DNA of 64,000 nt from Bacteroidales bacterium (GTDB taxonomy: Bacteria > Bacteroidota > Bacteroidia > Bacteroidales > UBA932), in NCBI GenBank assembly GCA_017554305.1, contig JAFZIN010000007.1, forward strand, positions 1 through 64,000, written 5' to 3'. Position numbers and translations under genes: made by a program. This document shows, piece after piece, positions 8,831 through 56,846 of this stretch. Positions within the stretch are counted from its first letter, which is position 1, and each line of letters begins with the position of its first letter. A model generated the notes under the pieces. It did not search any database. It was not told where the DNA came from and saw nothing but the letters and a program-made list of their open reading frames with translations.

Positions 8831-8866
8831 TAAAGGCCGCCGTAGATGTTTACGCGACCTTTATTA
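8831..8866 (-). terminator. hairpin after the five-gene minus operon
   Basis: On the minus strand AAAGGTCGC pairs with GCGGCCTTT (one G-U), followed by an AT-rich tail. It lies about 80 bases past the last stop codon of the operon. The remaining bases from 8867 to 8944 hold nothing I recognise. Confidence 0.45.
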
Positions 8867-8944
8867 TAATAATACATAATCAATAGAATAACGGGTTACT
8901 CGGTAAATTCATTTGACTTTATCTCTCAAAATATCTATAATTAA

Positions 8945-9874: not shown

Positions 9875-9882
9875 TATTTATA

Positions 9883-10779: not shown

Positions 10780-10783
10780 TATG

Positions 10784-11239
10784 TTAAAGACCAAACTTTC
10801 TGATTATTCCATTTTGCTCTAAATCTTTCCTCAAAGCAAAAATATTAACAGTTATGTCAGCTGTAATAGTCCATTTTTTATATTTTGTCCATGAGTAATT
10901 TGTAACAGGAACAGAGGAAATGATAAAACTTTTGTGCCTGCCCTTTTCAAAGAGCTCCTTAAAATATCTTGGATTGGCTTGAAGAGCCTGATCCTCCCTA
11001 AGGGATATCAATGGATTATTATATTGAGAACCCGGAATACCTCTAAAAAGAATTGACTCTAAGGCATTTTTCTCAGCAGCATCAAGAGATTCAATCTTAT
11101 GCTTGCCAAAACCAGTAGCTCTTAAAGTTATCGTATTATTCTGCTCAGAAACTATAACGCAAGATTGAACTGGATATACTTTCGGTGAACAGGATATAAT
11201 TATGGTCATTAAAGATGAAAGAAGTAATAACTTTCTCAT
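10784..11239 (-). CDS. LPP20-like lipoprotein
   Basis: 151 residues from the ATG at 11239, two bases after the CsgG-like gene's stop. The N-terminus is a lipoprotein signal (MRKLLLLSSLMTIIISCS, lipobox IISC, then SPK), so the mature protein is lipidated. The body has the pattern of LPP20/FlgP-like lipoproteins: a strand ITLRATGFGKH, a helix DAAEKNALESILFRG, and later strands KKWTITADITVNIFALR. These small domains accompany CsgG or FlgT proteins in outer-membrane rings in other bacteria. That link is by family; the actual partner here is inferred from gene order. Confidence 0.7.
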   Translation of the reverse strand: MRKLLLLSSLMTIIISCSPKVYPVQSCVIVSEQNNTITLRATGFGKHKIESLDAAEKNALESILFRGIPGSQYNNPLISLREDQALQANPRYFKELFEKGRHKSFIISSVPVTNYSWTKYKKWTITADITVNIFALRKDLEQNGIIRKFGL

Positions 11240-11241
11240 AA

Positions 11242-12075: not shown

Positions 12076-12077
12076 AT

Positions 12078-12614
12078 TTAAAGATTAGATGCAGACTTGG
12101 CTGTTTCAACCATTGATGCAATAGCCTTTGCTTGAGCAGCAGATTCTTCAAGGAGAATAGGTGTGGCATCTGAAGTGAATTTGGTCATCGCAGCCAACTT
12201 AGCCGCTTTTAGTGGGTTTTTGATCTCTTTAGCCTTTTTTGCTGCATCTTCAGATAATTTTGTCGCTTTTGCAACTGCGTCTCCTTCATCTGCAATTGAG
12301 GCAGAGAGTTCGAGAATGTCGTCCAAAGATGGCTTTACAATAGTGACATCGGTTACACCATCTTTTGTCTCACCGATTTGTCTATAATATAAATTTTCCA
12401 ACTTTTCGCTATTTTTCACAGCCGATTCAGCCGCATTTAGCACTGCATTAGCGTGGGCATCAACCTCAGGAACACCTGTTGCTTTGGGAAATTTTTTGCA
12501 TAATTCGGAGAGTTTTTGAGCACGTGTGACAGAAGCACTAATTTCTTCTTTAGTTTGAGCAATGACATTTGTTGCAACCAGGAGAGTTGCCATCATCAAA
12601 ACAATCTTTTTCAT
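12078..12614 (-). CDS. exported helical protein, first gene of operon
   Basis: 178 residues with signal peptide MKKIVLMMATLLVATNVIAQ. The mature part is almost wholly alpha-helical and Ala/Lys-rich (ADEGDAVAKATKLSEDAAKKAKEI), probably a helical bundle or coiled coil. No known domain recognised. It opens the five-gene operon; the gap to the next gene is two bases. No TAnnTTTG box lies in the 60 bases before it, so the operon may be transcribed from further upstream, possibly by read-through of the adjacent ncRNA terminator. Confidence 0.65.
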   Translation of the reverse strand: MKKIVLMMATLLVATNVIAQTKEEISASVTRAQKLSELCKKFPKATGVPEVDAHANAVLNAAESAVKNSEKLENLYYRQIGETKDGVTDVTIVKPSLDDILELSASIADEGDAVAKATKLSEDAAKKAKEIKNPLKAAKLAAMTKFTSDATPILLEESAAQAKAIASMVETAKSASNL

Positions 12615-12671
12615 AACTTTTTTATTCTTTTAGTTAACATGATTTTTTGTTTCTGTCATTAGGCTAAGAGA

Positions 12672-12872
12672 CACAAAAAACGCGAGCGAAACTTGCTCTT
12701 ATTGAGGTCGTAGGAAACCCTTAGGGAAACAAGTAACGCCCGCGTAAATGTTACGTGGACATAGATACTTGTTCTTGATCCCTAAATTCTTTTGAAATTT
12801 CCTACGTTTCAATTAAGACCGAACAAATAGCTAACGCTGTATGTCTGTCATTTTATAGCTTTCACCCAAATG
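12672..12872 (-). ncRNA. 6S-like structured RNA (candidate Bacteroidales-1 / 6S)
   Basis: On the minus strand a promoter at 12879-12910 predicts a start near 12872, and a hairpin with six T at 12674-12691 predicts the end, giving about 200 nt. In between is a long rod: CGTAGGAAA pairs perfectly with TTTCCTACG, AACAAGTA with TACTTGTT, AGGGA with TCCCT, and TCTTAATTGA with TCAATAAGA (one bulge), capped by CGTAA-CAT-TTACG. A long rod with an internal loop, own promoter and own terminator is what 6S RNA looks like. Assignment to 6S or to Rfam's Bacteroidales-1 motif is from memory of those families and not tested. Confidence 0.6.
12674..12695 (-). terminator. intrinsic terminator of the 6S-like RNA
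   Basis: Minus strand GAGC-AAGTTTC-GCTC followed by GCG and six T. Confidence 0.55.
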
Positions 12873-12878
12873 ACTTAA

Positions 12879-12910
12879 CAAATCTAATTAAATTAAAAGT
12901 ATTATCCAAA
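12879..12910 (-). promoter_or_regulatory. promoter of the 6S-like RNA
   Basis: Minus strand TTTG (12910-12907), exactly 20 bases, then TAGATTTG (12886-12879). Both elements match the Bacteroidota consensus at ideal spacing. The other bases from 12911 to 13035 hold no gene and nothing I recognise. Confidence 0.65.
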
Positions 12911-13035
12911 CCGAATACTATGTTATTAACTCAATCTATGCAATGTCGGCCTTTTAAAAGGGTTACCCCAAAAATAGAATAGCTGAAATACAATTTATTC
13001 CGTAAAAGAAATAAAACAGTGTTTTTTTATCGGAC

Positions 13036-13068
13036 AAAAAACTTATTGTGCTGATTAATAAGGTTTTT
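13036..13068 (-). terminator. hairpin after the DUF234-type ATPase gene
   Basis: AAAAACTTATT and AATAAGGTTTTT form an inverted repeat; on the minus strand it is followed by a T run. It starts 25 bases after the stop codon. Confidence 0.55.
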
Positions 13069-13093
13069 ACGCACTATACGGGTGACGCATGAA

Positions 13094-14539
13094 TCAGTCA
13101 AAGAGGTCGTCCAGCGTGATAACATTTTGAAAAATACCAGAGTATTCGTTGTTCAATAGTCCAAATGTAGTCACAAGGACAGGATTGATTGTACTGCGCT
13201 TGGGAATCATTGTATCAAGTCGGTTGTATCTGCCAACTAAAACACGGTCGTATGACTTTGTAACTGTGTACTCATCATTATAGAATTTCATTTCGCACAT
13301 ATTAACAATATTGTCCTTGCGTTCTATTATAAGGTCTATCTGACTCCCATCCACTTCATCGTCACCTTTGACTAACCAGTTGGACTGATTGGATGATACT
13401 CCGGAAATACCAAGTGCCTTCTTAATCTTGTCAATGTGTCTAAGACATACTTCTTCGAATGCGAAACCTCGCCAGCTACTGATACTCTGCGAGGTAACGT
13501 TTGTCAACCAGAAATCGTTATCCAATCGGCTACGTCCCTTGACGTATTTTAAATAGAAAAGACAGAAAGCGTCAACCAACTTATAATGCTCATCTCTTTT
13601 TGACTGGCCAAGAGGAACATATTTCATCACAAAATCGCTGGTCAAAAGAGCATTAAGCATTTTTGACAATAGCCCATTATCTCCCAGTTTTGTTTTATCT
13701 ATGATATCCTTTCTAGTGTAACCGCTTCTTCGTCCGGCAAGGAGTTCAACAATTCTTTTCATCTCTTCAGGATTGCTAAATACCGATGAGAACAAGCGGT
13801 CATACTCGCTATCAAGAACGCACTCATCTGAAAAGAAAATATTGTCGATATTTTGAGCTAGGCTAAATCCTTTTGTAAAATACTGTAGGTAGTAAGGAAT
13901 ACCGCCAAAGATCATATTACTTTGGACTATATCATATCTGGACAGATGTACTCCATTGTTTTTGAAAAATAATTCGCATTCCCTTAGGGAGAATGGAAAA
14001 AGTTTGATTTCGCGTGTGACACGTCCATAAAGCCCTCCGTGATTGTTTATAAGGTTATCTTGAATCCAGGAAGTTGCACTCCCGCAAACTACAACCATTA
14101 TATTGTCCCTATGACATGCCCACGTGTTCCAAAATCCCTCAAATGCCGTGATGAATTTAGAACGAGGAGTATCCAGCCACGGGAGTTCGTCCAAAAAGAT
14201 AACCTGCTTGCTTCCATTATCAATGCTCTGAAGCCATTGCTCCAACATAAAGAAGGCTTCGAGCCAGGATGCTGGCCTATGGCTCTTTTTCATTCCATGG
14301 AGAAGCAGTGACTGGTAAAAATGTAGAAGTTGATCGGACAGCATATTGGCATTACCGTTCTCATCAACTGGAGATAATCCCGCATGCCTAAATGTGATCA
14401 ATCCCTTTAGTGCTTCGTCTACAAGAAATGTTTTCCCCACACGTCTTCGACCATATACTGCCACTAATTGGGATTTGTTACTATTATAAAGATTATTCAG
14501 TTCTTTTATCTCTTTATCTCGCCCTATAATTGTTTTCAT
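13094..14539 (-). CDS. P-loop ATPase with C-terminal nuclease-like domain (DUF234 type)
   Basis: 481 residues from the ATG at 14539; longer readings need a non-ATG start. N-terminal ATPase: Walker A GRRRVGKT at about residue 27, Walker B VIFLDELPW at about 120, and a sensor-like VVVCGSATSW. A winged-helix part follows (GYTRKDIIDKTKLGDNGLLSKML). The C-terminus carries QIDLIIERKDNIVNMCEMKFY, a D...ExK pattern of the PD-(D/E)xK fold typical of DUF234. Such proteins are scattered in Bacteroidota and archaea, often in variable regions; target and function are unknown. Codon and base use are AT-rich like the neighbouring operon, which suggests transfer. Confidence 0.8.
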   Translation of the reverse strand: MKTIIGRDKEIKELNNLYNSNKSQLVAVYGRRRVGKTFLVDEALKGLITFRHAGLSPVDENGNANMLSDQLLHFYQSLLLHGMKKSHRPASWLEAFFMLEQWLQSIDNGSKQVIFLDELPWLDTPRSKFITAFEGFWNTWACHRDNIMVVVCGSATSWIQDNLINNHGGLYGRVTREIKLFPFSLRECELFFKNNGVHLSRYDIVQSNMIFGGIPYYLQYFTKGFSLAQNIDNIFFSDECVLDSEYDRLFSSVFSNPEEMKRIVELLAGRRSGYTRKDIIDKTKLGDNGLLSKMLNALLTSDFVMKYVPLGQSKRDEHYKLVDAFCLFYLKYVKGRSRLDNDFWLTNVTSQSISSWRGFAFEEVCLRHIDKIKKALGISGVSSNQSNWLVKGDDEVDGSQIDLIIERKDNIVNMCEMKFYNDEYTVTKSYDRVLVGRYNRLDTMIPKRSTINPVLVTTFGLLNNEYSGIFQNVITLDDLFD

Positions 14540-44107: not shown

Positions 44108-45268
44108 CTATTCAACTGATAATTTGTTTTTTACCGGATTGCTGTAAACCTTCAGATAGATATCCATAAGCGGAAGAAGAATGTTCTTCCATCTGGAGAG
44201 AGTAAGATGCATATTATCTGCAAACTGCTTGTACTCCTCCTTGGTATACTTGTCTGTAAACTTAAAGGTGTTGTACAGCATATCGTATGCTATATAGTTG
44301 TTTTTAAAGAGTTTATAGCCGTTGTAAATTCTGGTGTCTATAACGGATGCCATATATGCCAGCGCCTCGTTGCGGTCCAGTGAGCCGGCAGTGAGAAGTT
44401 CCTCCGCCGTTATAGGCTTGCAAATCTGAATGTGAACCTTGCCCTTAGGAGAGAGAATGCCCTCCATAATGCTTCTGAAGTCCTCCCCCTTCTCCTTTAT
44501 ATACGGGTGATCCTGAGAAAGATAGAGCTCTCTAACCTTCTGCGTTATGCAGGTCTCCCATTCGTATGACACAGCCATTGGAACTATGTTGAGTGTGGAG
44601 AAGTTTGTGCCTATATTTTTATCTCCCGATAGTGAAAACATCTTAAGAACTGTCTGGCTGGTCTTGTCATCTCCGTCCTTTGTTCGGCCGTTGCGCTGTG
44701 CAATCCAAACGGAAGTCTTTCTCTCATTTATCACATAACGGATATAACTGGAAAGATGGTGGCTGGTCTTGTAGAAATCCTTTGTAGTTCCGCCTCTTAC
44801 AACCTTGAACATACGGTTTGATTTGCCTACGTCTGAGACCATTCCGGGCTGCATAAGGTTATCTCCAAAGGTAATCTCTGAGCAGTCTAAGCCATTGTTG
44901 TGCAGCGCTATCTGAAGCAGTGCGGCATCCAGAAGAATATCTCTGTGGTTGGAGACAAAGAGGTAACCCTTGCCCGGTTCCAGATTCTCAAAACCATCAT
45001 ACGTAAAACCGTCTGTGGTCTTTCTTACAATTGCATTAATGGCATCAAACATAAAGCCCACCTGGAACTGGCTCACCGTTTTGAATGAGCGGAACTCATT
45101 GATTCTCTTCTCAATATCCTTCCCCTCATAAATGAAGTTCATAACAGCAGGAAAGTTCTCATCAGATGCAATTCTCTGCATGGCGTCAGATATTTCATCA
45201 TCTCTGTAAGGACGAATATCATCCCACTCGTTGGAAATATCCTTAGGTGTCTTTCTGTTGATGTCCAT
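44108..45268 (-). CDS. 1-acyl-glycerol-3-phosphate acyltransferase-like protein
   Basis: 386 residues from the ATG at 45268, five bases after the esterase stop. The acyltransferase signature is YLFVSNHRDILLD, a variant of the usual NHxxxxD, followed by WIAQRNGRTKDGDD in the place of the FPEGTRS block. A large N-terminal part (MNFIYEGKDIEKRINEF) marks it as the Bacteroidota long form. It should move an acyl chain to a glycerophosphate or similar acceptor at the inner membrane. It is the last gene of the 12-gene run. Confidence 0.8.
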   Translation of the reverse strand: MDINRKTPKDISNEWDDIRPYRDDEISDAMQRIASDENFPAVMNFIYEGKDIEKRINEFRSFKTVSQFQVGFMFDAINAIVRKTTDGFTYDGFENLEPGKGYLFVSNHRDILLDAALLQIALHNNGLDCSEITFGDNLMQPGMVSDVGKSNRMFKVVRGGTTKDFYKTSHHLSSYIRYVINERKTSVWIAQRNGRTKDGDDKTSQTVLKMFSLSGDKNIGTNFSTLNIVPMAVSYEWETCITQKVRELYLSQDHPYIKEKGEDFRSIMEGILSPKGKVHIQICKPITAEELLTAGSLDRNEALAYMASVIDTRIYNGYKLFKNNYIAYDMLYNTFKFTDKYTKEEYKQFADNMHLTLSRWKNILLPLMDIYLKVYSNPVKNKLSVE

Positions 45269-45273
45269 AATCT

Positions 45274-46110
45274 TTACTTTTGGAGTGTACCAATCCATTT
45301 AAGGAATCTATCATTCCAACCTCTTGCTCCTGAGTTCTTTGCCGCTCTTACCCCGAAGCCGTGCCCTCCCTTCTGATGAAATTCCACCTTGCAAGGTACT
45401 CCTTTTCTTTCTAATTCGGAAGCCATATTGTGAGAACCGTTAGATTTCACAATAGGATCATCTTCACAGTGAAGCAGGAAAACTGGAGCCATATCTTTTC
45501 TAACATTCTCATCTAAAGAGAGTTTTGAAACCAGAGTAGTATCTCCGCGGAGAAGGTTCTTCTTGGAAAGCCGGTGACAGTAAGGTTCACGCAGTGTGAC
45601 AACCGGGTAAAGCATAGCAACGTATGCAGGCCTGTACTTTGGATTCTCCTCCAGAGCGGCACATCCAGCAAGATGTCCTCCGGCAGAAAAACCAACTACC
45701 GCAATCTTTGAGGTATCTATACCCAAAGCGGTGGAATTATCTTTAAGATAGGTAATTGCACGTCTGTAATCCTCCAGCTGATCTGGGTAATGCGCACCAA
45801 ACCAGCCCATTCTGTAACGCAGCACAATTGCCAGATAGCCCCTCTTTGCAAAACTTTTTGCCACGTCAAACCCCTCCTGGTTTATAGCCAGGTATCTGTA
45901 ACTTCCTCCGGGAAGGATAATTACAGCAGGACTGCTGCCGCTGGTTCCCGCATCCGGAGCGTATGTAAATATCTTAACTCTCTTATAACTCCTCTCTGTC
46001 TTCTCTCCTTCCCAAAGCCTCTTCTTATCCACTCTGTGCTGAGCAAGCAGAGCAGATCCCGCCATAAGCAGAGCCGCAGAGCAAAACAATATCTTAAACC
46101 ATCTCTTCAT
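45274..46110 (-). CDS. exported alpha/beta hydrolase (esterase)
   Basis: 278 residues, signal peptide MKRWFKILFCSAALLMAGSALLAQ. HSL/acetyl-xylan-esterase-like core: VIILPGGSYRYLA (oxyanion), VVGFSAGGHLAG with the nucleophile Ser, FLLHCEDDPIV with the Asp, and KGGHGFG with the His, so the triad is complete. It probably removes an ester in the periplasm. Its start overlaps the MMPL-acyltransferase stop by 17 bases, so it belongs to the lipid cluster and may trim or mature its product. Confidence 0.85.
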   Translation of the reverse strand: MKRWFKILFCSAALLMAGSALLAQHRVDKKRLWEGEKTERSYKRVKIFTYAPDAGTSGSSPAVIILPGGSYRYLAINQEGFDVAKSFAKRGYLAIVLRYRMGWFGAHYPDQLEDYRRAITYLKDNSTALGIDTSKIAVVGFSAGGHLAGCAALEENPKYRPAYVAMLYPVVTLREPYCHRLSKKNLLRGDTTLVSKLSLDENVRKDMAPVFLLHCEDDPIVKSNGSHNMASELERKGVPCKVEFHQKGGHGFGVRAAKNSGARGWNDRFLKWIGTLQK

Positions 46111-49100
46111 CTGACTTGTACAAGTTTTTATCCTTTTCTCTCATCCTGCCGTAATCCTCATTACCATAAACAGTTGCGCACAGAGCATCATACTCCTCCT
46201 TATAGTATCTTCTCATTGCCTGAGACTGCTTTAACGCTCTTGTCCCAAACCTGCCCAACTCTTTGTAAGGGATTCTCTCCTTAAACTCCAAAACCACTCT
46301 TCCCCTTCTTAAAAGGTGCTCACCCTTAGGGAAAACCTCACCCGGCCCAAACAGTACAACGGGTAGAATATCCATCTGAAGTTCCTCTGCCATTGAAAAG
46401 GCACCGCTGCGGAACTTAAGGATATCACAATCCTCGCTTCTTGTCCCCTCCGGGAATATAAGTATTGAGCACCCCTCTTTCTTGAGGGAGAGCAGTTTCT
46501 CTCTGTTTATCTCCATCCCCTCCTCAATGCAAACATTTCCCGCTTTGCGCACAAAGTTACCATAAACCGGCGATTTATAAACCCATTTGTTGGTAACAAC
46601 CACTATCTTTTTACTCAGCGATAGATAATAGAGCAGATCAAGGTGAGACTGATGGTTGGAAATAATCACACAAGGCTCTGAAGATGAGAAGTATCTGTCT
46701 GTGTATTCAAAAATCTCCTTTACTTTTAACTCTTTTCCTTCACTCTTTACAAAGAACTTAACCCTTGGCATCTTTGAGGAGAAAAACCTCATATAACGGG
46801 TTATAAGTGAACGGAGTCTCTCTCCCTTTAACTTTGGATTAAAGAGCGTTATAAGCTTCAGCCAGAGGCATACGGCCGCAAAAACAGCTGCACAATAGAG
46901 AGTTATGAAAATATCTGAGAGCCTTATAGGAAGCACTCTCTCTTTACGCTCCTTTCTGAAAGATTTGCAAACCAGAAAGCGGAAGATTACAGGAGGGAGC
47001 ATAAAGGCCAGAAGCACCACGCAGATAAGACCAATTACGGCAACCGCACCCAGAGAGTGCAGAGCCGGATGAAGGGCAAAGATAAGAGAGCCCACTCCCA
47101 CAAACATAGTTATGGCAGAGAGAGTTACGCCGGTCTTATAGGATTGGAGCAACGGCTTTTTATTGGTGTATTCGTACTGCAAACCCTCCACCATAAAGAT
47201 GGTGTAGTCATCTCCCAATCCGAATATGAAGGATGCAAGAATTATATTTACAATGTTGAAACTTACTCCGAATATTCCCATAATTCCGGTTATCCAAATC
47301 CAGGAGACAACCATTGGAAGGAAGGCGCAAAGAGCAAGTTCCAGACGGCGGAAGGCAATCCATAAGAAGATGAAAACCAGAACGGAACAGATAGCCAGCA
47401 CCTTGTCAAAATCTTTCTGCAGTATATCTATCATCCCGTCCGTCATTGAGTAGGAATCAAATAGGAAGGAGCCCTCTGCCTTGTTGCCGTAATCTTTGTA
47501 TGAACTATAAAGTGAACTTAGATTTTCCTTTGGTGTATAAAGGATTTCCATCACAATAGATGTGGAAGAATCCCTAAGAATGAAAGGAGCCATTAGGGTT
47601 CCTATTGGAGAGAAAAACTCCTCCTGCTGCACGCCTAACTCACTTGTAAATAGCGCCTTGAACGGATCAAACGCATCATTTGTAAAACCGGCAGCCTCAC
47701 CCGCCTTATCTAAAGAATTAAGCAGAGTCACGCCGTTTTTCTCCACAAATGATTTCCAGAGAGAGAGCCTTCTCTGCTGCTCCTTCTCCGATGGAAGGAA
47801 CGGCCCTATTCCTCTGGATGATAGCACGTTGCCGCTCTTAACACTGGAGTCTGTAAAGGCTCTGTTTTTCTCCGCCGCATAAAGAGCATCACTTAGAGTG
47901 GCACCTTCCGTTACTGCATAAACCGCCACGCTACCCTCTCTTCCGGAGTATGATGAGAGTTTATCAAGTAACTGAGACTGAGCGGGTGCCATATAGTTTA
48001 TCTTGGTAAAGTCTCCGCTGAAAGTAACCTTGCGGCTGAAGAGGTAGAATACAACGGTTGCAACTACCAGAAGCCAGAAGAGATAGCGGTTCTCCTCTGG
48101 GCGGAATCCTGCCCAGCGGCCCAGCCAGCCGTTGCTCTTAGGTTTATAGTGTTTCTCTCCCACCCAATGCGGTAAGAAGATGATTACAAAGAAGATGGCT
48201 CCCACCAGAGAGACGGCTGCAAAGAGGCCGAAGTCTCTCATGCCGGAGGCGCTCATAACGAGCAGAGAGAGGAATGCTCCCACAGTGGTTATGTTACCTA
48301 TAACCATCGGGGAAACTATGTCTGAAAGAGTCTGGCGGGCGTTAGAGGTAAAGCCTAAACGGGTGGAGTACAAAAGTGAGTAATCTACTGCTATGCCGAA
48401 TATTACGCAGCAGGCGGCAAGGGCCACGCTGCTCACGCTCTCCTTCACAAGTCCCATAAAGGCAAGCCCCGCCATTATTCCAAATAATACCGGAACGCAG
48501 ATTAAAAGTATTGGTCTTACCCTTCTGAAGTACCAGGCTAAAAGTCCTACAATCAGAACAATGGCAAGGACGGCGCAGCGTACAGCATCCTTTTTCATAC
48601 GCTCCGCATTCATTACGGCTATTACCGGAGAACCGGTAAACTCCATCTGCACATCTGGGTAAAGGGCTGTTACGGAGTCTCTTATCTCATATACCCGTCT
48701 TAATAGTTGGGAGTTGTTGCCGGTCTCGCTTCCGCCAAATTCAGATGAGAAGTTCATCATAATTGCAGAGGAATCTGGAGTGAAGAGATACTCGCCTATT
48801 ACTCTGAAGCCGCTCTCCGTTCCAAGAGCGGTAAGTTTTTTGAGCAGTTTTGAGGAGAACTGAAGCGGATCTGCCGCCACTATGCTCTGAGTGAGACCGT
48901 TGGAGGTAATCATAGATTCCTTGTCCTGCTCCAGCATCTGCGTAAAATTGCCGTTGGAGATTATGGAATCTATACGGGCATAATCCTCATCTTCCAGGAA
49001 GTAAGGCATGTTCTCCGCTACAAATGAGGCGATTGCAAGGAATGAGGTTGGGTCTATCCTTACCGTAGGCTCCTTAATTCCCTCTACATCCATAGAGAGG

Positions 49101-49408
49101 AAACGCTCTGAGTATTCGTCTGCCGCCTGAGTCAGACGCTCTATACCATCCTGAGTATCATTAGGTTTCTCCTTTAAACTCATTAGAGAGACAACCTTGT
49201 CCTGCATTCTGAGATTCTTGTATACGAACTGGCTCTGACGGCTGTTTTCTCCGGAACCGTAAGGCAGAAAGGCTGCAATATCCTCATTCAGAGTTATATG
49301 TCGCATGCAGAGGTAGAAGCAACCTGCCAAAAGAATTGGGAGAAGGAGAGCAAGATAACGCCTTCCGCCGGCAAAGAAATCATATATCTTTAAAAAGAAT
49401 CTCTCCAT
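46094..49408 (-). CDS. MMPL/RND exporter fused to PlsC-type acyltransferase
   Basis: 1104 residues. Residues 1-830 are an RND/MMPL transporter: two halves, each with a periplasmic loop and about six membrane helices (IVLIVGLLAWYFRRVRPILLI; VFGIAVDYSLLYSTRLG; then SFIFGLGDDYTIFMVEGLQYEY in the second half). Residues about 870-1104 are a lysophospholipid acyltransferase domain with CVIISNHQSHLDLLYYLS (NHx4D) and ILIFPEGTRSEDCD. Export and acyl transfer in one chain suggest a lipid or acyl-polyene product is attached or moved across the membrane. Overlaps: one base with GT2 (TAATG), 17 with the esterase. Confidence 0.88.
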   Translation of the reverse strand: MERFFLKIYDFFAGGRRYLALLLPILLAGCFYLCMRHITLNEDIAAFLPYGSGENSRQSQFVYKNLRMQDKVVSLMSLKEKPNDTQDGIERLTQAADEYSERFLSMDVEGIKEPTVRIDPTSFLAIASFVAENMPYFLEDEDYARIDSIISNGNFTQMLEQDKESMITSNGLTQSIVAADPLQFSSKLLKKLTALGTESGFRVIGEYLFTPDSSAIMMNFSSEFGGSETGNNSQLLRRVYEIRDSVTALYPDVQMEFTGSPVIAVMNAERMKKDAVRCAVLAIVLIVGLLAWYFRRVRPILLICVPVLFGIMAGLAFMGLVKESVSSVALAACCVIFGIAVDYSLLYSTRLGFTSNARQTLSDIVSPMVIGNITTVGAFLSLLVMSASGMRDFGLFAAVSLVGAIFFVIIFLPHWVGEKHYKPKSNGWLGRWAGFRPEENRYLFWLLVVATVVFYLFSRKVTFSGDFTKINYMAPAQSQLLDKLSSYSGREGSVAVYAVTEGATLSDALYAAEKNRAFTDSSVKSGNVLSSRGIGPFLPSEKEQQRRLSLWKSFVEKNGVTLLNSLDKAGEAAGFTNDAFDPFKALFTSELGVQQEEFFSPIGTLMAPFILRDSSTSIVMEILYTPKENLSSLYSSYKDYGNKAEGSFLFDSYSMTDGMIDILQKDFDKVLAICSVLVFIFLWIAFRRLELALCAFLPMVVSWIWITGIMGIFGVSFNIVNIILASFIFGLGDDYTIFMVEGLQYEYTNKKPLLQSYKTGVTLSAITMFVGVGSLIFALHPALHSLGAVAVIGLICVVLLAFMLPPVIFRFLVCKSFRKERKERVLPIRLSDIFITLYCAAVFAAVCLWLKLITLFNPKLKGERLRSLITRYMRFFSSKMPRVKFFVKSEGKELKVKEIFEYTDRYFSSSEPCVIISNHQSHLDLLYYLSLSKKIVVVTNKWVYKSPVYGNFVRKAGNVCIEEGMEINREKLLSLKKEGCSILIFPEGTRSEDCDILKFRSGAFSMAEELQMDILPVVLFGPGEVFPKGEHLLRRGRVVLEFKERIPYKELGRFGTRALKQSQAMRRYYKEEYDALCATVYGNEDYGRMREKDKNLYKSDEEMV

Positions 49409-50139
49409 TATTTTCCGAATAACTTTTGAAGGGCCATTCTTGGATAGCCGTAAAAGAGAGCGCCCAAAGTGAGGAAGGTATTCATTACGCTTATGCGTGT
49501 AAAGTCCGCTCCCTTACGGAAATGGGTCACTCTGTCCGTTGGGTAGATTACATCTACCGGAACCACCAGAAGTTTTACACGGCGCCAGGCGGAGCGCACA
49601 AGCACCTCAGTTTCAAACTCGTATCTGTTTCCAAAGAAATGAATCTTTGCAATTTTCTTTAAAGGATAGAGGCGGCAGCCGCTTTGAGTATCGGGCAGTT
49701 TGTATCCCGTCTGAACTGTAAGCCAGAAGTTTGAGAAGTTGTTGGCAAACTTTCCGCCGGAGTCTATTCCCCTTTGAGAGCGGCTTCCAATAATGATGCT
49801 TTTTTGGCGCTCCTTCTCTGTAAGACTCTCTGCCAGAGCCATCATCTTCTCTGCTCCGGATAACGTGTGCTGACCGTCTGCATCAAAAACCAGAGCGTAC
49901 TCAAACCCCAGCTCCAAAGCCTTCTTAAAACCGGCACGAATGGCGTAACCCTTTCCTTTATTCTTTGTATAAGAGACTATGGCGTAAGGATTTGCAGCCT
50001 CAGCTTTAGCAAGGCTGTCATCTGTAGAACCGTCATTTACCGCAATTACCTTATAACCGGTTTCATTTATAGAGCGTACCACTCCGCCTACGGAGTTTGT
50101 ATTGTTGTAAAACGGCACTATAAAACAAACTCCCTCCAT
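49408..50139 (-). CDS. family 2 glycosyltransferase
   Basis: 243 residues from the ATG at 50139; longer readings require TTG. GT-A fold: VCFIVPFYNNTNSVGGVV, VIAVNDGSTDDSL, and the metal motif VFDADGQHT (DxD). The end YPRMALQKLFGK shows no membrane helices of the ArnC type, though SQRGIDSGGKFANNFSNFWL and GCRLYPLKKI resemble dolichyl-phosphate-mannose-synthase-like members. It probably adds a sugar to the lipid made by the cluster or to a lipid carrier flipped by the neighbouring SMR protein. Confidence 0.85.
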   Translation of the reverse strand: MEGVCFIVPFYNNTNSVGGVVRSINETGYKVIAVNDGSTDDSLAKAEAANPYAIVSYTKNKGKGYAIRAGFKKALELGFEYALVFDADGQHTLSGAEKMMALAESLTEKERQKSIIIGSRSQRGIDSGGKFANNFSNFWLTVQTGYKLPDTQSGCRLYPLKKIAKIHFFGNRYEFETEVLVRSAWRRVKLLVVPVDVIYPTDRVTHFRKGADFTRISVMNTFLTLGALFYGYPRMALQKLFGK

Positions 50140-50143
50140 CACT

Positions 50144-50500
50144 CTATTTCTGCACAATTAGAATTGCACCTATAATTATCAGAGCAACACCCACATACCT
50201 TACAAAAGGAATGTGCTCATGGAAGACAACCGCTGCAACCACAAGTCCCAGAACGTAACTGAAACTGATCATAGGATATGCGGCGCTGAACGGATAATTC
50301 CTTAAGATATAGAACCATAGAACGGAGCCACCGCCCATGCAAAGACCGCAGAGCAAAAAGTTTATATCTGTAAACAACTGTTTGATACAACTCCAGGTAA
50401 AGGCCAGCTTGTCTACCTTCTGCATTGTAAACTTCAGAAACATCTGACCTAAAACCAGCAGCGTACTTTGAACTATGGAGAGCAGTATCAGTTTGTACAT
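50144..50500 (-). CDS. SMR/EamA-like small membrane protein
   Basis: 118 residues, four membrane helices (LILLSIVQSTLLVLGQMFLKF; NFLLCGLCMGGGSVLWFYIL; AAYPMISFSYVLGLVVAAVVF; YVGVALIIIGAILIVQ). AYPMISFSYV is the proline/aromatic signature of the EmrE/ArnE-F group. With a GT2 next door, flipping of a glycosylated lipid carrier (as in Ara4N modification) is one reading; drug efflux is less likely in this context. It overlaps the ketosynthase-like gene by 13 bases. Confidence 0.8.
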   Translation of the reverse strand: MYKLILLSIVQSTLLVLGQMFLKFTMQKVDKLAFTWSCIKQLFTDINFLLCGLCMGGGSVLWFYILRNYPFSAAYPMISFSYVLGLVVAAVVFHEHIPFVRYVGVALIIIGAILIVQK

Positions 50501-51450
50501 AAGTTACTTATTAAGGTGAATGAATAGTTGGCTCCGCTACGGACTGCAAGAAGAATTCTCTTTTTTCCGGCGGAGTTTTTCAAAATATCTGAGCAGCAGA
50601 AGAGTCCGAATGCAGAAGCGGAAAGGTACTCTCCGCACCACTGCTTGTATGTAAGACGCTCCTTCTCCTTAGGGATGAACGCAAAGTTCTCCCTCTGCGG
50701 GTTAGGGAAATCGGAGGTCATTACAAGATCTATGTCATCCCAGGTTAAACCGCTGGATGATAGAAAATTATCTAAAGTATCAGAAACGCCTCCGCGTATC
50801 TGAATCATATCTTCAATTACAGCGTATGCCCTCTCAGACGGTTTATTTTCCAACAGAAAGGCGGTGGCTCCCTCTGAAAGAGGAATTGATGAGAGTTTTG
50901 GAAGGAAACTCAGCATACGGTAAAGGTTATCTGTCATCTGGTCTGCAACTACCATCAGTATGGATGAGGCCTCCCCCTTTTCAAACTGCATAATTGAATC
51001 CAGCAGCGCCCCCTCCATAGAGAATGCATCATTTACGTGAGTGGAGTTGAAACCTTTGCACCCCAGAGCAATAGCAATCTGAGAAGCGCAGGTGTTAGGT
51101 GTTGAACAGATGAACTTTGAAGGGTTTAGCATATTCTCTCCGTCATCTATCATCTTCTTTAAAAATACCTCGGTATCTCCCACACAGCCGTTTCCGGTTC
51201 CGGAGATTATGGCATCCGGGCACTTTAACGGAGAGTTCTCCATCACATATTTTGAAACGGCCAGGGTTCTCTTTAAAATGGAACTCATTCTGCGGGCCTC
51301 CATTGGAGGTATAAACTGCTTAAAATCCGGGTCTTTACAAAGCACCCTGCCGCCCTCCACCGGCAGCGCCTCAAAGGAGTTCACCCCTTTGAACGGCTCC
51401 TGTGCGGAGATTGCGGCCGCAGAGATTATGTATGCTTTTCCCCTCTTCAT
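50488..51450 (-). CDS. ketosynthase-like protein without catalytic Cys (chain-length-factor type)
   Basis: 320 residues, thiolase fold of the beta-ketoacyl synthase family (AIISGTGNGCVGDTEVFL, CSTPNTCASQIAIAL, EGATAFLLEN). At the nucleophile position, where the partner has ISTACSAAANA, this protein has STHVNDAFSMEGA: no Cys. The two catalytic His blocks are also absent (EYLSASAFGLFCCSDIL replaces the TGHATS block). That is what a chain-length factor looks like beside its active ketosynthase. It starts four bases inside the ketosynthase gene (ATGA), so the two are translated together and probably form a heterodimer. Confidence 0.8.
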   Translation of the reverse strand: MKRGKAYIISAAAISAQEPFKGVNSFEALPVEGGRVLCKDPDFKQFIPPMEARRMSSILKRTLAVSKYVMENSPLKCPDAIISGTGNGCVGDTEVFLKKMIDDGENMLNPSKFICSTPNTCASQIAIALGCKGFNSTHVNDAFSMEGALLDSIMQFEKGEASSILMVVADQMTDNLYRMLSFLPKLSSIPLSEGATAFLLENKPSERAYAVIEDMIQIRGGVSDTLDNFLSSSGLTWDDIDLVMTSDFPNPQRENFAFIPKEKERLTYKQWCGEYLSASAFGLFCCSDILKNSAGKKRILLAVRSGANYSFTLISNLCTN

Positions 51451-52646
51451 TGGCAGTATTTTGAGAAAATAAGTGATGTATCGTTTCCTCCAAATCCAAA
51501 GGAGTTGGAGATTACATTCTTAACGTCTATATCTGTAACAGTCTCTGTAACAGGAGAGAAACTCAGTTCAGCATCTCCTCTTTCATAACGCAGGTTTGCC
51601 GGAATGAATCTCTTTTCAATAACCAGCAGAGAAATTATTGCCTCCAAAGCTGCGGCCGCACTGGTTGCGTGCCCGGTAAAACACTTGGTAGAACCAATAT
51701 ATGGAATCTTATCTCCAAAGAGAGTCATAAGCGCCTTGCCCTCAGAGAGGTCATTGTTCTGTGTTCCCGTTCCGTGAGCGTTAACGTAATCTATATCCTC
51801 CGGCTTCAGACCGGCCTTCTTAAGTGCCTTGGTCATAGCCAGATATGCACCTTTACCATCCGGAGATGATGCTGTCTGATGGAATGCGTCACAGGCATTT
51901 CCCCACCCGGAAAGAAGCCCCCTTATCTTTGCCCCCCTCTTTTGAGCGTGCTCAATGCTCTCTAAAACAATGAACCCCGCTCCCTCTCCAAGATTGAGCC
52001 CTTTTCTGGAGGCGTCAAACGGACGGCAAGGCGTATCATCTAAAATCATAAGGGAGTTGAATCCATTAAAGTGGTACCTTGTAAGTGACTCTGTTCCACC
52101 CGCTATGATAACGTCATAGCGTCCGCTCTCAATAAGTTCCGCACCAAAGGCAATGGCGTTGGCGGCGGCGCTGCAGGCGGTGGAGATTACATCCGTATAT
52201 ACCACACGGCTCTTTAAAGAGTCTGCTATAAGGTCATTGCATACACCATCTAGATGTAGAAAAATTTTATCGGAGTTCTCCGGCCCCTCCAGAAAGTTGT
52301 TGAGGTAACTCTCTGTAATGTCCATACCTCCAACGGTAGTGCCGCTTATAAGGGCAACCTTTGTTCCCTCCTTAAGGCAGGCATCCTCCTCGGCCGCCCG
52401 GGCAGCAACAATGCCCAAAAGAGCAGAGCGCGGAAAAACCCTCTCCTTATCCTCACCTATAAGTTCAACAAGTTGAGAATTAGAGTATTCCACCTCCCCG
52501 CAAGGAAGGTTTGTATGAACGGTTTTAAGATATTTGGGAGATGCAATGGGGCAGCGTTTCTCTAAAAGAGAAGTATAGGTCTTATCCAAACCTATACCCA
52601 ACGCAGAGATTATCCCCATGCCTGTTATTGCAATCCCAGAGGACAT
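51447..52646 (-). CDS. beta-ketoacyl-ACP synthase, FabF type
   Basis: 399 residues. GMGIISALGIGLDKTYTSL opens it; the active Cys is in ISTACSAAANAIAFG (about residue 157), the His pair in YVNAHGTGTQNND and KCFTGHATSAAAALEA, and SFGFGGNDTSLIF closes it. It elongates acyl-ACP with malonyl-ACP. Place beside an ACP and an inactive partner makes it a type II polyketide/polyene ketosynthase (APE/DAR-like) rather than the housekeeping FabF. It follows the ACP gene by six bases. Confidence 0.9.
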   Translation of the reverse strand: MSSGIAITGMGIISALGIGLDKTYTSLLEKRCPIASPKYLKTVHTNLPCGEVEYSNSQLVELIGEDKERVFPRSALLGIVAARAAEEDACLKEGTKVALISGTTVGGMDITESYLNNFLEGPENSDKIFLHLDGVCNDLIADSLKSRVVYTDVISTACSAAANAIAFGAELIESGRYDVIIAGGTESLTRYHFNGFNSLMILDDTPCRPFDASRKGLNLGEGAGFIVLESIEHAQKRGAKIRGLLSGWGNACDAFHQTASSPDGKGAYLAMTKALKKAGLKPEDIDYVNAHGTGTQNNDLSEGKALMTLFGDKIPYIGSTKCFTGHATSAAAALEAIISLLVIEKRFIPANLRYERGDAELSFSPVTETVTDIDVKNVISNSFGFGGNDTSLIFSKYCQ

Positions 52647-52652
52647 TTGGGG

Positions 52653-52901
52653 TTATTTTTTGCTCTCTATGAATTCCGCAATTGAATTTACACTGGTCAT
52701 AATACCCTTAGCCTGAGCAGGATCTGCTAGTTTAATACCGTAGTTCTTCTCAAGCATTACAATAAGTTCCAGTGCATCTATTGAGTCAAGCCCAAGCCCC
52801 TCCTTACCAAAAAGCGGTGCGTCATCCTTAATATCCTCAGGAGTAAGCTCCTCCAGGTTGAGGGCTTCAATAATCTGGGCCTTTAATTTCTGTACATCCA
52901 T
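52653..52901 (-). CDS. acyl carrier protein
   Basis: 82 residues. The phosphopantetheine site is GLGLDSIDALELIVML (Ser about 41). The chain is acidic and helical, as expected. It differs from housekeeping AcpP in the GLGLDSID context, typical of dedicated ACPs in aryl-polyene and lipid clusters. A possible internal promoter (TTTG-N20-TAAATTGC) sits in the 57-base gap upstream. It holds the growing chain for the adjacent ketosynthase pair. Confidence 0.9.
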   Translation of the reverse strand: MDVQKLKAQIIEALNLEELTPEDIKDDAPLFGKEGLGLDSIDALELIVMLEKNYGIKLADPAQAKGIMTSVNSIAEFIESKK

Positions 52902-52958
52902 ATCGTTTTAGATTTGAAGGCGCAATTTACTAAAAATTGGCTGAAACATCAAATTAGA

Positions 52959-53861
52959 CTACTTTTCATCTGAAGACTTCTGGGCCCAGAAATCGTAGAA
53001 ATTGAACCACTGGTAAGGGTTCTCCCTTATCACACGCTCCAGAATCTCCACATACTTCTGCCCGTAAGCAACGGCGCGGGCCTCACGTCCCTTAATTTCC
53101 GGATCTATCTTAATCTGCTCAACGTGAACCCTGTAACGGAACCACTTTTTGGTACCCAGAACAAACATTGCAATAAAATCTGCCTGAAAGCGGTCTGCTA
53201 TATTATAGATTCCAATAGGAAATTCCGCCTCCGCTCCCAGAAAGTTGAACTTGTGGTTACGGCGTCCGGTAAAAGTTCTGTCTCCCGCCAAAGTAATTGC
53301 CTCACAGTCTCTTATAACATCGTTAATCTTAAAGATGTGCTCCATGCTGTCACTCACCTCCACCATCTCAATGTTGTTCTGTTCCATTGCCCCCTTGCGG
53401 AACTTCTGCATCTGGGCCGTCTCTCCCGCAAAGGCCAGAACGTTCAGTTTTTTAGGCAGATGGCCGCACAGGTATGAAGAGATTTCAAAGTTACCCACGT
53501 GGGCGCTCACCATAACCAGAGGCTTCTCTGTGGTGAAATACTTGAATACCAGATCTTTCTCTATTCTTGCAACAACATATTTGTTAATATGACCGGCATA
53601 GATGTAGAAGCGGTCCAACAGAAACTTTCCAAAGAGCAGATGGTTTTTGAAGGTACCCCAGAGAGATTTTACAAAAGAGAATTTCTGCCTTCTTCTGAGG
53701 TATGCGTAAATGGAGTAGGCTCTGCGCGGAGCAAAGATAATGTAGCCTATAACCACAAATGGCAAAAAGCAGTATATAACCCTGATATCCACATACTTGA
53801 GTATGCGCATCAGAAGCCCCTGCTTGGCCTCGCCGCCTCCCGTTTTACCTTTCCAATCCAT
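52959..53861 (-). CDS. LpxL/HtrB-like acyltransferase
   Basis: 300 residues. One N-terminal hydrophobic segment (VIYCFLPFVVIGYIIFA), then the lipid-A-type acyltransferase motif VSAHVGNFEISSYL (Hx4E) and the later GDRTFTGRRNHKFNFLGAEAEFPIG. Such enzymes take the acyl chain from ACP; here the ACP next door is the natural donor. The acceptor could be a glycolipid or lipid A, or the aryl head group in a polyene cluster. It is four bases after fabG. This is not the only LpxL expected in a genome. Confidence 0.87.
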   Translation of the reverse strand: MDWKGKTGGGEAKQGLLMRILKYVDIRVIYCFLPFVVIGYIIFAPRRAYSIYAYLRRRQKFSFVKSLWGTFKNHLLFGKFLLDRFYIYAGHINKYVVARIEKDLVFKYFTTEKPLVMVSAHVGNFEISSYLCGHLPKKLNVLAFAGETAQMQKFRKGAMEQNNIEMVEVSDSMEHIFKINDVIRDCEAITLAGDRTFTGRRNHKFNFLGAEAEFPIGIYNIADRFQADFIAMFVLGTKKWFRYRVHVEQIKIDPEIKGREARAVAYGQKYVEILERVIRENPYQWFNFYDFWAQKSSDEK

Positions 53862-53864
53862 CTT

Positions 53865-54593
53865 TTAGGTGTTAAGTCCGCCGTTAATTTCAATAACCTG
53901 ACCGGTAATGTAACCCGCTTTCTCTGAGGCCAGAAAGGCAACCAAATCTGCAACCTCCTCTGCTGTTCCAAATCTTCCGGCAGGAATTGTATCTTTCAAA
54001 CTGTTCTGGTCCAGCTCTTTAGTCATATCCGTCTCCACAAAGCCAGGAGCCACCGCATTAACCGTAACCCTTCTCTTTGCCACCTCCAGAGCAAGCGCCT
54101 TTGTTGCGGCAATCACTCCTCCCTTGGCTGCTGAGTAGTTTGTCTGGCCGGGCATTCCTTTTATTCCCGACAGTGAAGCAACACTTATTACCCTGCCCCA
54201 CTTCTTCTTAGCCATAGGTGTAATGGCCTTGCGGGTAACGTGGAAGAAGCCGTTGAGGTGAGTGTTAATAACGTCATACCAATCCTTATCTTCCATCCAC
54301 ATCAGAAGGGTATCTCTTCTTATTCCGGCATTGTTCACAAGCACTGCAATATAGTCATCCGGATGAGCAGCCATCCAACCGTCCAACGCCTCCTCTGCCT
54401 CCTTAGGCACTGATACGTTGAACTTTAGAAGCTCAGCCGCTCCGCCTGCCTCCTCAATCTCTCTCTTTACTTCCAGCGCAGCATCCTCTCTGCTTACATA
54501 ATTGATGAGTATAGGATAACCCTCCTTTGCAAGAGCCTTGCATATTGCGGCCCCTATACCTCTTGAACCTCCTGTTACAAGTGCGTATTTCAT
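53865..54593 (-). CDS. 3-oxoacyl-ACP reductase (FabG-like)
   Basis: 242 residues. TGGSRGIGAAICKALAKEG, LVNNAGIRRDTLL, SVASLSGIKGMPGQTNYSAAKGG (catalytic Ser, Tyr, Lys), VNAVAPGFVETDMT and a C-terminal GQVIEINGGL. It reduces the ketoacyl-ACP made by the ketosynthase pair. FabG paralogues beside ACP and KS are normal in aryl-polyene loci. Four bases separate it from the nucleotidyltransferase gene and three from the acyltransferase. Confidence 0.88.
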   Translation of the reverse strand: MKYALVTGGSRGIGAAICKALAKEGYPILINYVSREDAALEVKREIEEAGGAAELLKFNVSVPKEAEEALDGWMAAHPDDYIAVLVNNAGIRRDTLLMWMEDKDWYDVINTHLNGFFHVTRKAITPMAKKKWGRVISVASLSGIKGMPGQTNYSAAKGGVIAATKALALEVAKRRVTVNAVAPGFVETDMTKELDQNSLKDTIPAGRFGTAEEVADLVAFLASEKAGYITGQVIEINGGLNT

Positions 54594-54597
54594 ATCT

Positions 54598-55401
54598 TTA
54601 CTTATTTGATAATTCTTTCATAAACTCCTCTGCCTTAGGAAGATGCTCCAAACGGCCCACATCCAGCAGGCGGAGGTTGTCAAAGTAACGCCCCTCAATC
54701 TTAAACTTTGCTGCATTGTTAAGGTAGAAATCTACAATTGAAAACTTCTCCTCCCAACTTTCCATAAGGGCAAAAACCTTTGGAGAGAGCACGTGTATTC
54801 CGCCGAATGCAAACGGCCTCAGCCCCTTCTCTTCCAGTATTTTATGAGCATCTTTATCTCCCGATAGTGCAGCATACTTTTTATACGGAGACTTTACCTC
54901 AAACGTCTTCAGATTCTCCCAGCCTGCCAGAAGATTGTTGGAATCAAAAAGGAGGCGGCGGTCACTGTAACGTCCGCTCACTACAACAGATGCAAGAACT
55001 CCCTCCTCAATTCTCTTAACGGAGGAATTGTAAAAAGATTTCAGATCCAGATCTGAGAGAATATCCACGTTGTGAACAAGGAAAGGTTCTCCGTCATCTA
55101 AAAGTTTTGCAGCGTGACGCACCCCTCCTCCGGTATCTCTCAGCAAATCAAACTCTTCTGAGAACTGAACCTTAAGGCCGCAATGAGGATTTTTCCTAAA
55201 GAACTCCTTAACAAACTCCTCCACCTTCTCTCCAAAGTGGTGAACGTTTATAACAATATCCTTAAAGCCGAATGAAGCAAGACGTCTTATCTGCCACTCC
55301 AAAAAGGTAACCCCTCCAACCTCAACCAGCGCCTTGGGCTTGTTGTCTGTCAGAGGTTTGAGTCTGGTACCCAATCCTGCGGCAAAAATAAGAGCTTTCA
55401 A
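54598..55401 (-). CDS. nucleotidyltransferase, MurU-like
   Basis: 267 residues. Start is TTG at 55401, directly after the upstream TAA; no ATG is available before the nucleotide motif IFAAGLGTRLKPLTDNKPKALVEVGG at residue 4, so the rare start is forced. LRDTGGGVRHA and FLVHNVDILSDLD (metal-binding Asp) fit the sugar-1-phosphate nucleotidyltransferases, closest in pattern to MurU (MurNAc-1-P uridylyltransferase). Pairing with an AmgK-like kinase gene supports that choice. GDP-mannose-type or other NDP-sugar enzymes remain possible. Confidence 0.78.
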   Translation of the reverse strand: MKALIFAAGLGTRLKPLTDNKPKALVEVGGVTFLEWQIRRLASFGFKDIVINVHHFGEKVEEFVKEFFRKNPHCGLKVQFSEEFDLLRDTGGGVRHAAKLLDDGEPFLVHNVDILSDLDLKSFYNSSVKRIEEGVLASVVVSGRYSDRRLLFDSNNLLAGWENLKTFEVKSPYKKYAALSGDKDAHKILEEKGLRPFAFGGIHVLSPKVFALMESWEEKFSIVDFYLNNAAKFKIEGRYFDNLRLLDVGRLEHLPKAEEFMKELSNK

Positions 55402-56820
55402 TTATACCTCCTCCTCTATACCAAGTTCTCTGTGGGTAAGTTTAACCCTAACGTTGAATTTCTTTGCAATATGGTCTGCAAGATGCTTTGCACAATATAC
55501 GGAGCGGTGCTGTCCGCCGGTACATCCGAATGATACCTGCAGGTGAGTGAACTTCCTCTCCACAAACCTTTTAACGTGGGCATCCACCATATCGTAAACG
55601 TTGGAGAGGAACTTCTTAATTCCGCCCTCGTCTTCCAGATATTTTATTACAGGTTCATCCAGTCCGGTAAAGAGGCGGAAGCGCTCATACTTGCCAGGAT
55701 TTTCAAGGGCACGGCAGTCAAATACATAACCGCCGCCGTTACCGCTGTCATCCATTGGAATACCCTTCTTGTAGGCAAAGGAGAATACATGAACCTCCAG
55801 AGTAACCTCCCTTCTTAAGTCCTTGAGCTGGCGCATCTTAGTGAGTGCGGTCAGAACCTGCTGAAGGTAAGGATATTCGTTGAAAGGTTTCTTTATGAGT
55901 TTTCTGAGATTCTCAATTGCAAACGGTATGCTCTGAAGGAAGTGAGGCTTCTTTTCAAAGTATCCGCGGAAACCGTAGGCTCCCAAAACCTGAAGGGTTC
56001 TGAAGAGAACAAAGAGACGGAGGTTGTGAGTGAACTCCTTCTCAGATACCATCAGATATTTCTTAAGTTCCTTACGGTAAGTTGCTATGAGGGTGTCTTT
56101 GAGTTCGTCTGAATAGTTGGCTCTGGCCTGCCATACGAATGAGGCAATGTCATAGTAGAACGGGCCTCGTCTTCCGCCCTGGAAGTCAATAAAATACGGA
56201 ACGCCGCCAACCAGCATCACGTTGCGGGCCTGGAAGTCTCTGTACATAAAGGTGTTGCCCTTCATAACAGCAAGCAGGTCCTTTGCCATCTTCTGCATAT
56301 CCTCATGCAGGCGGATCTCACTGAACTCCACGCCGCTGGTCTTAAGGAAGCAGTATTTGAAGTAGTTGAAATCAAACCAGATGTTTTTCTCATCAAACTC
56401 CGGCTGAGGATAGCAATTGGAGTAATCCAGGTCTCTTCCTCCAAGGAACTGGAACTTAGGGAGCAGCGCCATTGTACGCTTTAAGAGGGTAACCTCCTTC
56501 TGGGAGTAACTTCCCTTCTCCCTTCCGCTTTTGATTGCATCAAACAGAGATACGGTTCCCAAATCTTCCTGCAGATAGTAGATGCCGTCCTTGCTGGAGA
56601 TGTAAACCTCCGGAACATTGAGTCCCACCTCCTTAAAATGTCTTGCAAGAGAGATGAATGCGTGATTCTCCTCCACGCTTGTTCCCATTGCTCCAATTAG
56701 GGAGACCTTCTCAGACTTCAGCCTGAAATATCTTCTGTTACTTCCGGACTGAGGCAACTCCTCACAGGAGACGCACTTCTGGCCGGTATATTGTTCAAAT
56801 AGATCCTTAAGTTGTTTCAT
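55402..56820 (-). CDS. AmgK-like sugar kinase fused to RapZ C-terminal domain
   Basis: 472 residues from the ATG at 56820. Residues about 1-325 are a phosphotransferase of the aminoglycoside-kinase fold: SGSNRRYFRL, then YRDFQARNVMLVGGVPYFIDFQGGRRGPFYYDIAS with the HRD-like and DFG-like blocks, as in the MurNAc/GlcNAc kinase AmgK. Residues about 335-472 match the RapZ C-terminal domain: VFDCRALENPGKYERFRLFTGLDEPV and VSFGCTGGQHRSVYCAKHLADHI. In E. coli RapZ this domain senses glucosamine-6-phosphate. The RapZ Walker domain is missing, so the protein is not a RapZ orthologue. Confidence 0.85.
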   Translation of the reverse strand: MKQLKDLFEQYTGQKCVSCEELPQSGSNRRYFRLKSEKVSLIGAMGTSVEENHAFISLARHFKEVGLNVPEVYISSKDGIYYLQEDLGTVSLFDAIKSGREKGSYSQKEVTLLKRTMALLPKFQFLGGRDLDYSNCYPQPEFDEKNIWFDFNYFKYCFLKTSGVEFSEIRLHEDMQKMAKDLLAVMKGNTFMYRDFQARNVMLVGGVPYFIDFQGGRRGPFYYDIASFVWQARANYSDELKDTLIATYRKELKKYLMVSEKEFTHNLRLFVLFRTLQVLGAYGFRGYFEKKPHFLQSIPFAIENLRKLIKKPFNEYPYLQQVLTALTKMRQLKDLRREVTLEVHVFSFAYKKGIPMDDSGNGGGYVFDCRALENPGKYERFRLFTGLDEPVIKYLEDEGGIKKFLSNVYDMVDAHVKRFVERKFTHLQVSFGCTGGQHRSVYCAKHLADHIAKKFNVRVKLTHRELGIEEEV

Positions 56821-56838
56821 AAGAGTATAACTGTCTAA

Positions 56839-56846
56839 CAAATTTA
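56839..56846 (-). promoter_or_regulatory. promoter -7 element for the 12-gene run
   Basis: Minus strand TAAATTTG, 18 bases before the ATG at 56820. It is the only strong box seen ahead of the run from 56820 to 44108. Confidence 0.5.

Follow-up and report, generated by a model that had tools for sequence, protein, structure and literature searches.

A ten-gene operon of a Bacteroidales bacterium (positions 44108-54593, minus strand, of a 64,000-nucleotide stretch of contig JAFZIN010000007.1 that we call the window) is likely to serve a flexirubin-type, aryl-polyene-like lipid pathway, for which it would provide reduction, elongation, attachment and export. This pathway would be divided among several loci, and its tyrosine-derived start would have been replaced by loading of a free acid through a carrier-ligase module encoded elsewhere in the genome. 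The operon is not a novel lipid system; its pathway is of a familiar kind, flexirubin-type, though unusual in being scattered and in having an exchanged starter module. The module itself, a small carrier protein followed by an AMP-forming ligase, probably initiates the chain by loading a preformed acid. The genome (G000) is a 1.82-Mb draft in 32 contigs and is 89.5% complete.

Starter genes in G000 and its relatives

Flexirubin synthesis in Chitinophaga pinensis starts with FlxA, which converts tyrosine to 4-coumarate, and the CoA ligase FlxY, and its flx and dar loci are separate (PMC3992019). We found neither enzyme in G000. The best FlxA match reached 357 bits against a cut-off of 700 and fell on a hut-type lyase, the single aromatic lyase found in the genome, whose neighbours were identified by eye as hut genes; on this basis a classical FlxA lyase elsewhere in G000 was rejected. 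FlxY had no match at E 1e-60. It is highly improbable that the hut histidine lyase also makes coumarate and keeps the classical start working: one lyase is indeed present, but its neighbours and its score on the FlxA model speak against this role, and two other genomes with the ligase described below (G027, G061) have no PF00221 aromatic lyase of any kind.

Family profiles agreed with the original prediction, made from the window alone, that none of the ten genes encodes a lyase, a ligase or a dehydratase. A check of the rest of the genome for histidine or tyrosine ammonia-lyase (HAL/TAL), ligase and FabZ-like genes, which that prediction had proposed, gave a ligase on contig C9 and dehydratases on contig C18, but only the hut-type lyase. 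The operon is therefore without a dehydratase and a ligase while the genome is not, and of the functions listed as missing only FlxA and FlxY were not found at the genome level.

Contig C9 encodes, in order, a 645-aa ketosynthase-like protein, a 74-aa carrier protein and a 446-aa AMP-forming ligase. We compared the distribution of this ligase with that of FlxA and FlxY in 99 genomes of the family, counting FlxA at ≥500 bits, FlxY over its cut-off and orthologues of the C9 ligase at E 1e-60. FlxA was counted in 37 genomes (35 over cut-off plus two contig-edge pieces, in G092 and G068), FlxY in 37, both in 33 and the ligase in 7. The ligase occurred together with FlxA in 0/99 genomes and together with FlxY in 0/99. 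Restricting the count to the 44 genomes with a match of ≥400 bits to the operon's MMPL exporter fused to an acyltransferase (MMPL-AT), six have the ligase, 34 have FlxA, none has both and four have neither; of these four, G036 and G076 carry FlxY, and the other two genomes are incomplete (G026 at 73%, G050 at 80%). Exclusion between ligase and FlxA gives a Fisher p of 3e-5 for the 44 genomes and 0.04 for all 99, values that are not corrected for kinship.

We also scanned named genomes with the ligase alignment and retained the best 80 loci. At least eight named loci have a close ligase (the top 8 of the best 80, 47-66% identity), all in Bacteroidales and including that of Caecibacteroides pullorum AN421, a cultured chicken bacterium. 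In all eight the ligase is located at the end of a flexirubin-type cluster. The other 72 loci are ≤35% identical and belong to many phyla, with a few Bacteroidota among them, and the three of these that were mapped (L148-L150) have no cluster genes. FlxA was over cut-off in 0/8 of the named genomes, with one 341-bit match that lies within the score range of hut-type lyases. Since these eight loci have the carrier-ligase pair at the cluster's 3′ end, next to genes for acyltransferases or MMPL proteins, the pair might instead act late, in tailoring or attachment, in a pathway that is started otherwise. We consider this unlikely, given that the pair turned up in no family genome with FlxA or FlxY and in no named genome with FlxA over cut-off, and that it sits with a ketosynthase in G000 and G097.

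A small carrier protein is encoded directly upstream of the ligase in 14/14 loci with upstream sequence (the G009 ligase, at a contig edge, is outside this count). Its motif is ELDSLG in 13 of the 14 loci and HLDSLS in L147, where carrier protein and ligase are fused in a single 513-aa protein (L147 9767-11308). No carrier-protein match above 39.3 bits was found in 31 stretches from FlxA-bearing genomes; these stretches do not span whole clusters, and genome-wide absence from FlxA-bearing genomes therefore holds for the ligase and not for the carrier protein.

Pairwise identity among the 15 ligases is ≤74%. Identification of the ligase as FlxY was rejected on a score of 23.5 bits (E 0.2), and its match to the single ApeH-like protein compared, from Azospirillum and itself labelled from its place in a cluster, was 33 bits (20% identity). 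The adenylation motifs and the C-terminal lysine motif are retained in 14/14 full-length ligases. The best NCBIfam match is to a fatty-acyl ligase family, far under cut-off (211 against 476 bits), and the best whole-sequence match among solved structures is gramicidin synthase, with a score that sums several A domains. An aspartate of such A domains holds the amino group. In the alignment with gramicidin synthase this Asp faces an Ile of the ligase beside a conserved His (NHI in 14/14 full-length copies), a substitution that argues for an acid without an alpha-amino group; an amino-acid adenylating enzyme was rejected on these residues. Neither family profiles nor solved structures singled out an acid.

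An FlxJ-type methyltransferase is present in 2/13 ligase-type stretches (L072, L085), compared with 7/31 stretches from FlxA-bearing genomes, and its retention is a weak hint of an aromatic head group. It is possible, though we doubt it, that the module loads a non-aromatic acid, giving a non-aryl polyene or resorcinol ester rather than an aryl polyene. The fatty-acyl family as best match and the lack of an FlxJ-type methyltransferase in the G000 loci compared would fit such a product, whereas the two FlxJ-bearing stretches and the occurrence of the ligase where the tyrosine-derived start enzymes are absent point the other way.

Genes and affiliation of the window operon

All ten genes of the original prediction are open, intact frames on the minus strand, and their family profile matches agree with the domains it named. 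The operon continues upstream into two further minus-strand genes, the first 4 bases away and the second directly adjoining it (0 bases).

53865..54593, minus: FabG-type reductase FlxB (NCBIfam NF053542 FlxB, 386.7 bits, cut-off 340)
52959..53861, minus: LpxL-like acyltransferase (PF03279, E 8.8e-11; relatives in clusters of FlxA-bearing genomes)
52653..52901, minus: acyl carrier protein, presumably of the elongation machinery (PF00550; NF006617, 70.2 bits, cut-off 70)
51447..52646, minus: ketosynthase with intact Cys-His-His (PF00109/PF02801; tree; active-site alignment)
50488..51450, minus: chain-length-factor-like partner without the Cys and both His (PF13723; alignment)
50144..50500, minus: small membrane protein, EamA/SMR, ArnE/F-like (PF00892; NF002816, 55.5 bits, below cut-off 99)
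49408..50157, minus: GT2 glycosyltransferase (PF00535; counterparts in G097 and G074 have a dehydratase-like domain in front)
46094..49408, minus: MMPL exporter fused to a PlsC-type acyltransferase, 1104 aa (PF03176 and PF01553)
45274..46110, minus: esterase, BD-FAE family (PF20434, E 7.3e-26; signal-peptide-like start by eye only)
44108..45298, minus: second acyltransferase (PF01553, 26.5 bits, cut-off 23)
54598..55401, minus: nucleotidyltransferase contiguous with the operon (PF00483; of the mapped loci, those of G000, G097 and G074 alone have it next to the cluster)
55402..56841, minus: APH-type kinase with RapZ C-terminal domain, contiguous with the operon (PF01636, PF22740)

The overlaps, put at 1-17 bases in the original prediction, were roughly right: six junctions overlap by 25, 17, 1, 14, 13 and 4 bases, and three are gaps of 6, 57 and 3 bases. 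The 57 bases are all that separates the carrier protein and LpxL-like genes, and the 25-base overlap disappears if the last operon gene (44108..45298) begins at an internal ATG. The upstream nucleotidyltransferase and kinase (54598-56841) resemble what we take to be an AmgK/MurU pair.

We judged flexirubin-type membership, for which the product would be an aryl polyene esterified to dialkylresorcinol, by an FlxB-type reductase, dialkylresorcinol genes, a dehydratase, a ketosynthase distinct from housekeeping FabF, FlxA and FlxY. The reductase in the window is over the FlxB cut-off, and the dehydratases and dialkylresorcinol genes lie on C18. The intact ketosynthase and its Cys-less partner were confirmed by alignment, the former keeping all of Cys-His-His and the latter 0/3 of these residues. 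In a tree of 40 ketosynthases (open reading frames of 371-479 aa from stretches L054-L093, including four FabF rows of the window's genus, with no FabB and no ketosynthase of a named flexirubin producer), that of the window falls in a 24-row clade from relatives' flexirubin-type clusters, and the four FabF rows are separate (support 100/99). The longer reading frame of L072 (G061) and stretches L140-L147 are outside the tree because of the selection of reading-frame lengths and stretches. The original prediction would have been abandoned had the ketosynthase grouped with housekeeping FabF; it stands apart in this tree, on which a housekeeping fatty-acid locus was rejected. The FlxB score and the ketosynthase grouping both bear out the kinship with flexirubin loci that had been suggested.

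FlxA-bearing relatives have genes of these kinds gathered in one cluster, with the GT2, MMPL-AT, esterase, LpxL-like and second acyltransferase kinds all present. FlxA is, for instance, the immediate upstream neighbour of the FlxB-type reductase in G003, G057, G083 and G091, and FlxY is found near the second acyltransferase in G057 and G083. In G000, G097 and G074 the nucleotidyltransferase/kinase pair occupies the place upstream of the reductase, the G074 cluster being rearranged. With these gene kinds in clusters that carry FlxA, the proposal of a different glycosylated or acylated lipid using borrowed chemistry finds no support.

The sister clusters of G097 and G074 retain LolA and two dehydratase-like domains, of which the window has 0/3. 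One of these domains is free, beside the LpxL-like gene; the other is fused in front of GT2 in proteins of 368 and 381 aa (L054 9551-10657 and L055 9611-10756), the window GT2 being without it. This difference would suit a relic operon whose product is no longer made after loss of dehydratase and LolA. We think that improbable, as the ten frames are intact, the ketosynthase keeps its catalytic residues and the lost functions exist on C18.

Contig C18 encodes DarH, DarG, DarB, a flavodoxin-like protein (recognised by eye), an ApeI/FabZ-like dehydratase, a LolB2-like protein, LolA2, a second chain-length-factor/ketosynthase pair and a second FabZ-like protein. Scores are over cut-off for DarB (578.8 bits, cut-off 550), DarH (397.6, 300) and LolA2 (195.9, 125). 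DarG is above its subfamily cut-off only (141.6 against 70; equivalog 141.8 against 170), and the LolB2-like protein is below cut-off (30.9 against 60). The flavodoxin-like protein, 297 aa long and with no family match, is the DarA candidate. At the contig end (L009 1-567) there is an MMPL fragment cut by the end, the remainder of which was not found in the G000 assembly. A further contig, C31 (L092 4771-14910), encodes an acyltransferase, a ketosynthase, a carrier protein, an 830-aa MMPL protein, an FAD oxidoreductase, LolA and DUF5686; its ketosynthase and MMPL genes are also adjacent in G097, G074 and G003.

The two FabZ/ApeI-like proteins on C18 and the two dehydratase-like domains in the G097 and G074 clusters weaken the earlier suggestion that the chain may be saturated or hydroxylated. 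A dehydratase-free route to a saturated or hydroxylated glycolipid agrees with the operon's own gene content, but it is very unlikely in view of the C18 proteins, on which truly dehydratase-free chemistry was rejected, and of the same kinds of GT2 and acyltransferases in clusters of FlxA-bearing genomes. Among the products originally envisaged, the best fit is a polyene whose precursors come from elsewhere; the borrowed-chemistry lipid is unsupported and the dehydratase-free chain weakened, so that the original interpretation is borne out in part.

Elsewhere in the window, positions 8001-14000 have a low G+C content (0.35-0.38, against 0.43-0.48 in the rest) and contain five minus-strand frames (8945-12614); this stretch was possibly acquired.

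Proposed pathway

The sequences show gene content, gene families and location, the exclusion of ligase and FlxA/FlxY in the sampled genomes, and the adjacency of carrier and ligase; from these we infer each reaction, which acid is used and that the loci cooperate. The C9 ligase would activate a free carboxylic acid and load it onto the adjacent 74-aa carrier protein, from which either the co-located C9 ketosynthase or the window ketosynthase and chain-length factor would take it over and extend it with malonyl units. FlxB of the window would reduce each keto group, and dehydration by the C18 dehydratases would yield a polyene. Attachment of this polyene to a lipid may fall to the LpxL-like, MMPL-fused and second acyltransferases, and MMPL together with the LolA2 and LolB2-like proteins of C18 may move the product towards the outer membrane. 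DarB, DarG, DarH and the flavodoxin-like protein of C18 could supply a dialkylresorcinol partner.

Several observations weigh against this pathway. The absences in G000 are no proof because the genome is 89.5% complete. C18 might operate separately from the window, as it has its own ketosynthase/chain-length-factor pair and the window cluster itself is without dehydratase and LolA; DarB (L009 2041-3177) is found in G000 alone among eight sampled genomes of the genus and in 11/99 genomes of the family at ≥500 bits. G009 has a contig-edge ligase fragment yet no MMPL-AT match. The named loci are not a random sample of clusters because they were found by ligase sequence, and the eight genomes in the FlxA count of 0/8 come without completeness figures. 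C. pullorum, which has the ligase cluster, grew as greyish-white colonies on its culture medium (PMC8849064); this either speaks against a pigment or would be explained if the acid was lacking.

Spread of the module and comparison with known systems

We asked how the exchange is distributed over cluster backbones with a GT2 tree of 38 rows (the window and 37/51 stretches; no GT2 came from L141 or L145, and L058 is unlabelled). The ligase and FlxA labels need four changes on this tree, three of them forced by strongly supported branches, and a single clade of all ligase rows was rejected (approximately unbiased (AU) test, p 1e-4). The swap is spread over several cluster backbones. Six rows that the GT2 tree unites in one clade are split up in a tree of the ligases (AU p 2e-5), a pattern that fits movement of the module from one cluster to another. 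Tested groups were fixed ahead of each tree, the ligase identity table being already known before the second.

As a tentative extension, a mobile two-gene starter cassette of carrier protein and ligase may repeatedly have replaced the tyrosine-derived start in flexirubin-type pathways of gut Bacteroidales, so that a pigment-lipid would be built on an aromatic acid scavenged from the host's plant diet and not made by the cell. If so, repeated starter exchange would make it possible to predict which gut bacteria are self-sufficient for the head group and which may depend on an external supply. C. pullorum AN421 offers a cultured host of the module.

A flexirubin-like cluster has been noted in gut Bacteroides (PMC12940132). 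Among the papers listed in literature searches that covered few subscription papers, we found no report of a gut Bacteroidales flexirubin-type cluster with a carrier-ligase start or without an ammonia-lyase.

The arcuflavin system of Azoarcus BH72 likewise has unlinked clusters for a polyene-dialkylresorcinol pigment, two of them, both required. By description it differs in its start, a chorismate-derived hydroxybenzoate with the AMP-ligase ArcT (PMC3949708).

The aryl polyene systems of E. coli and Xenorhabdus share with G000 a ketosynthase/chain-length-factor pair, a reductase, two dehydratases, a resistance-nodulation-division (RND) transporter, LolA/LolB-like proteins and a ligase; there ApeH is reported to load the acid on the acyl carrier protein without a CoA intermediate, with ApeR for initiation (PMC8253772). 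The G000 ligase has 20% identity to the sole ApeH-like protein compared, the Azospirillum one.

C. pinensis, with flxA-flxY and darAB, has an FlxB reductase, several ketosynthases, dehydratases and an acyltransferase as G000 does, and there too the flx and dar genes form separate loci (PMC3992019). The two differ at the start of the chain, which in C. pinensis is made by FlxA and FlxY, whereas G000, in which neither was found, has the carrier-ligase pair instead.

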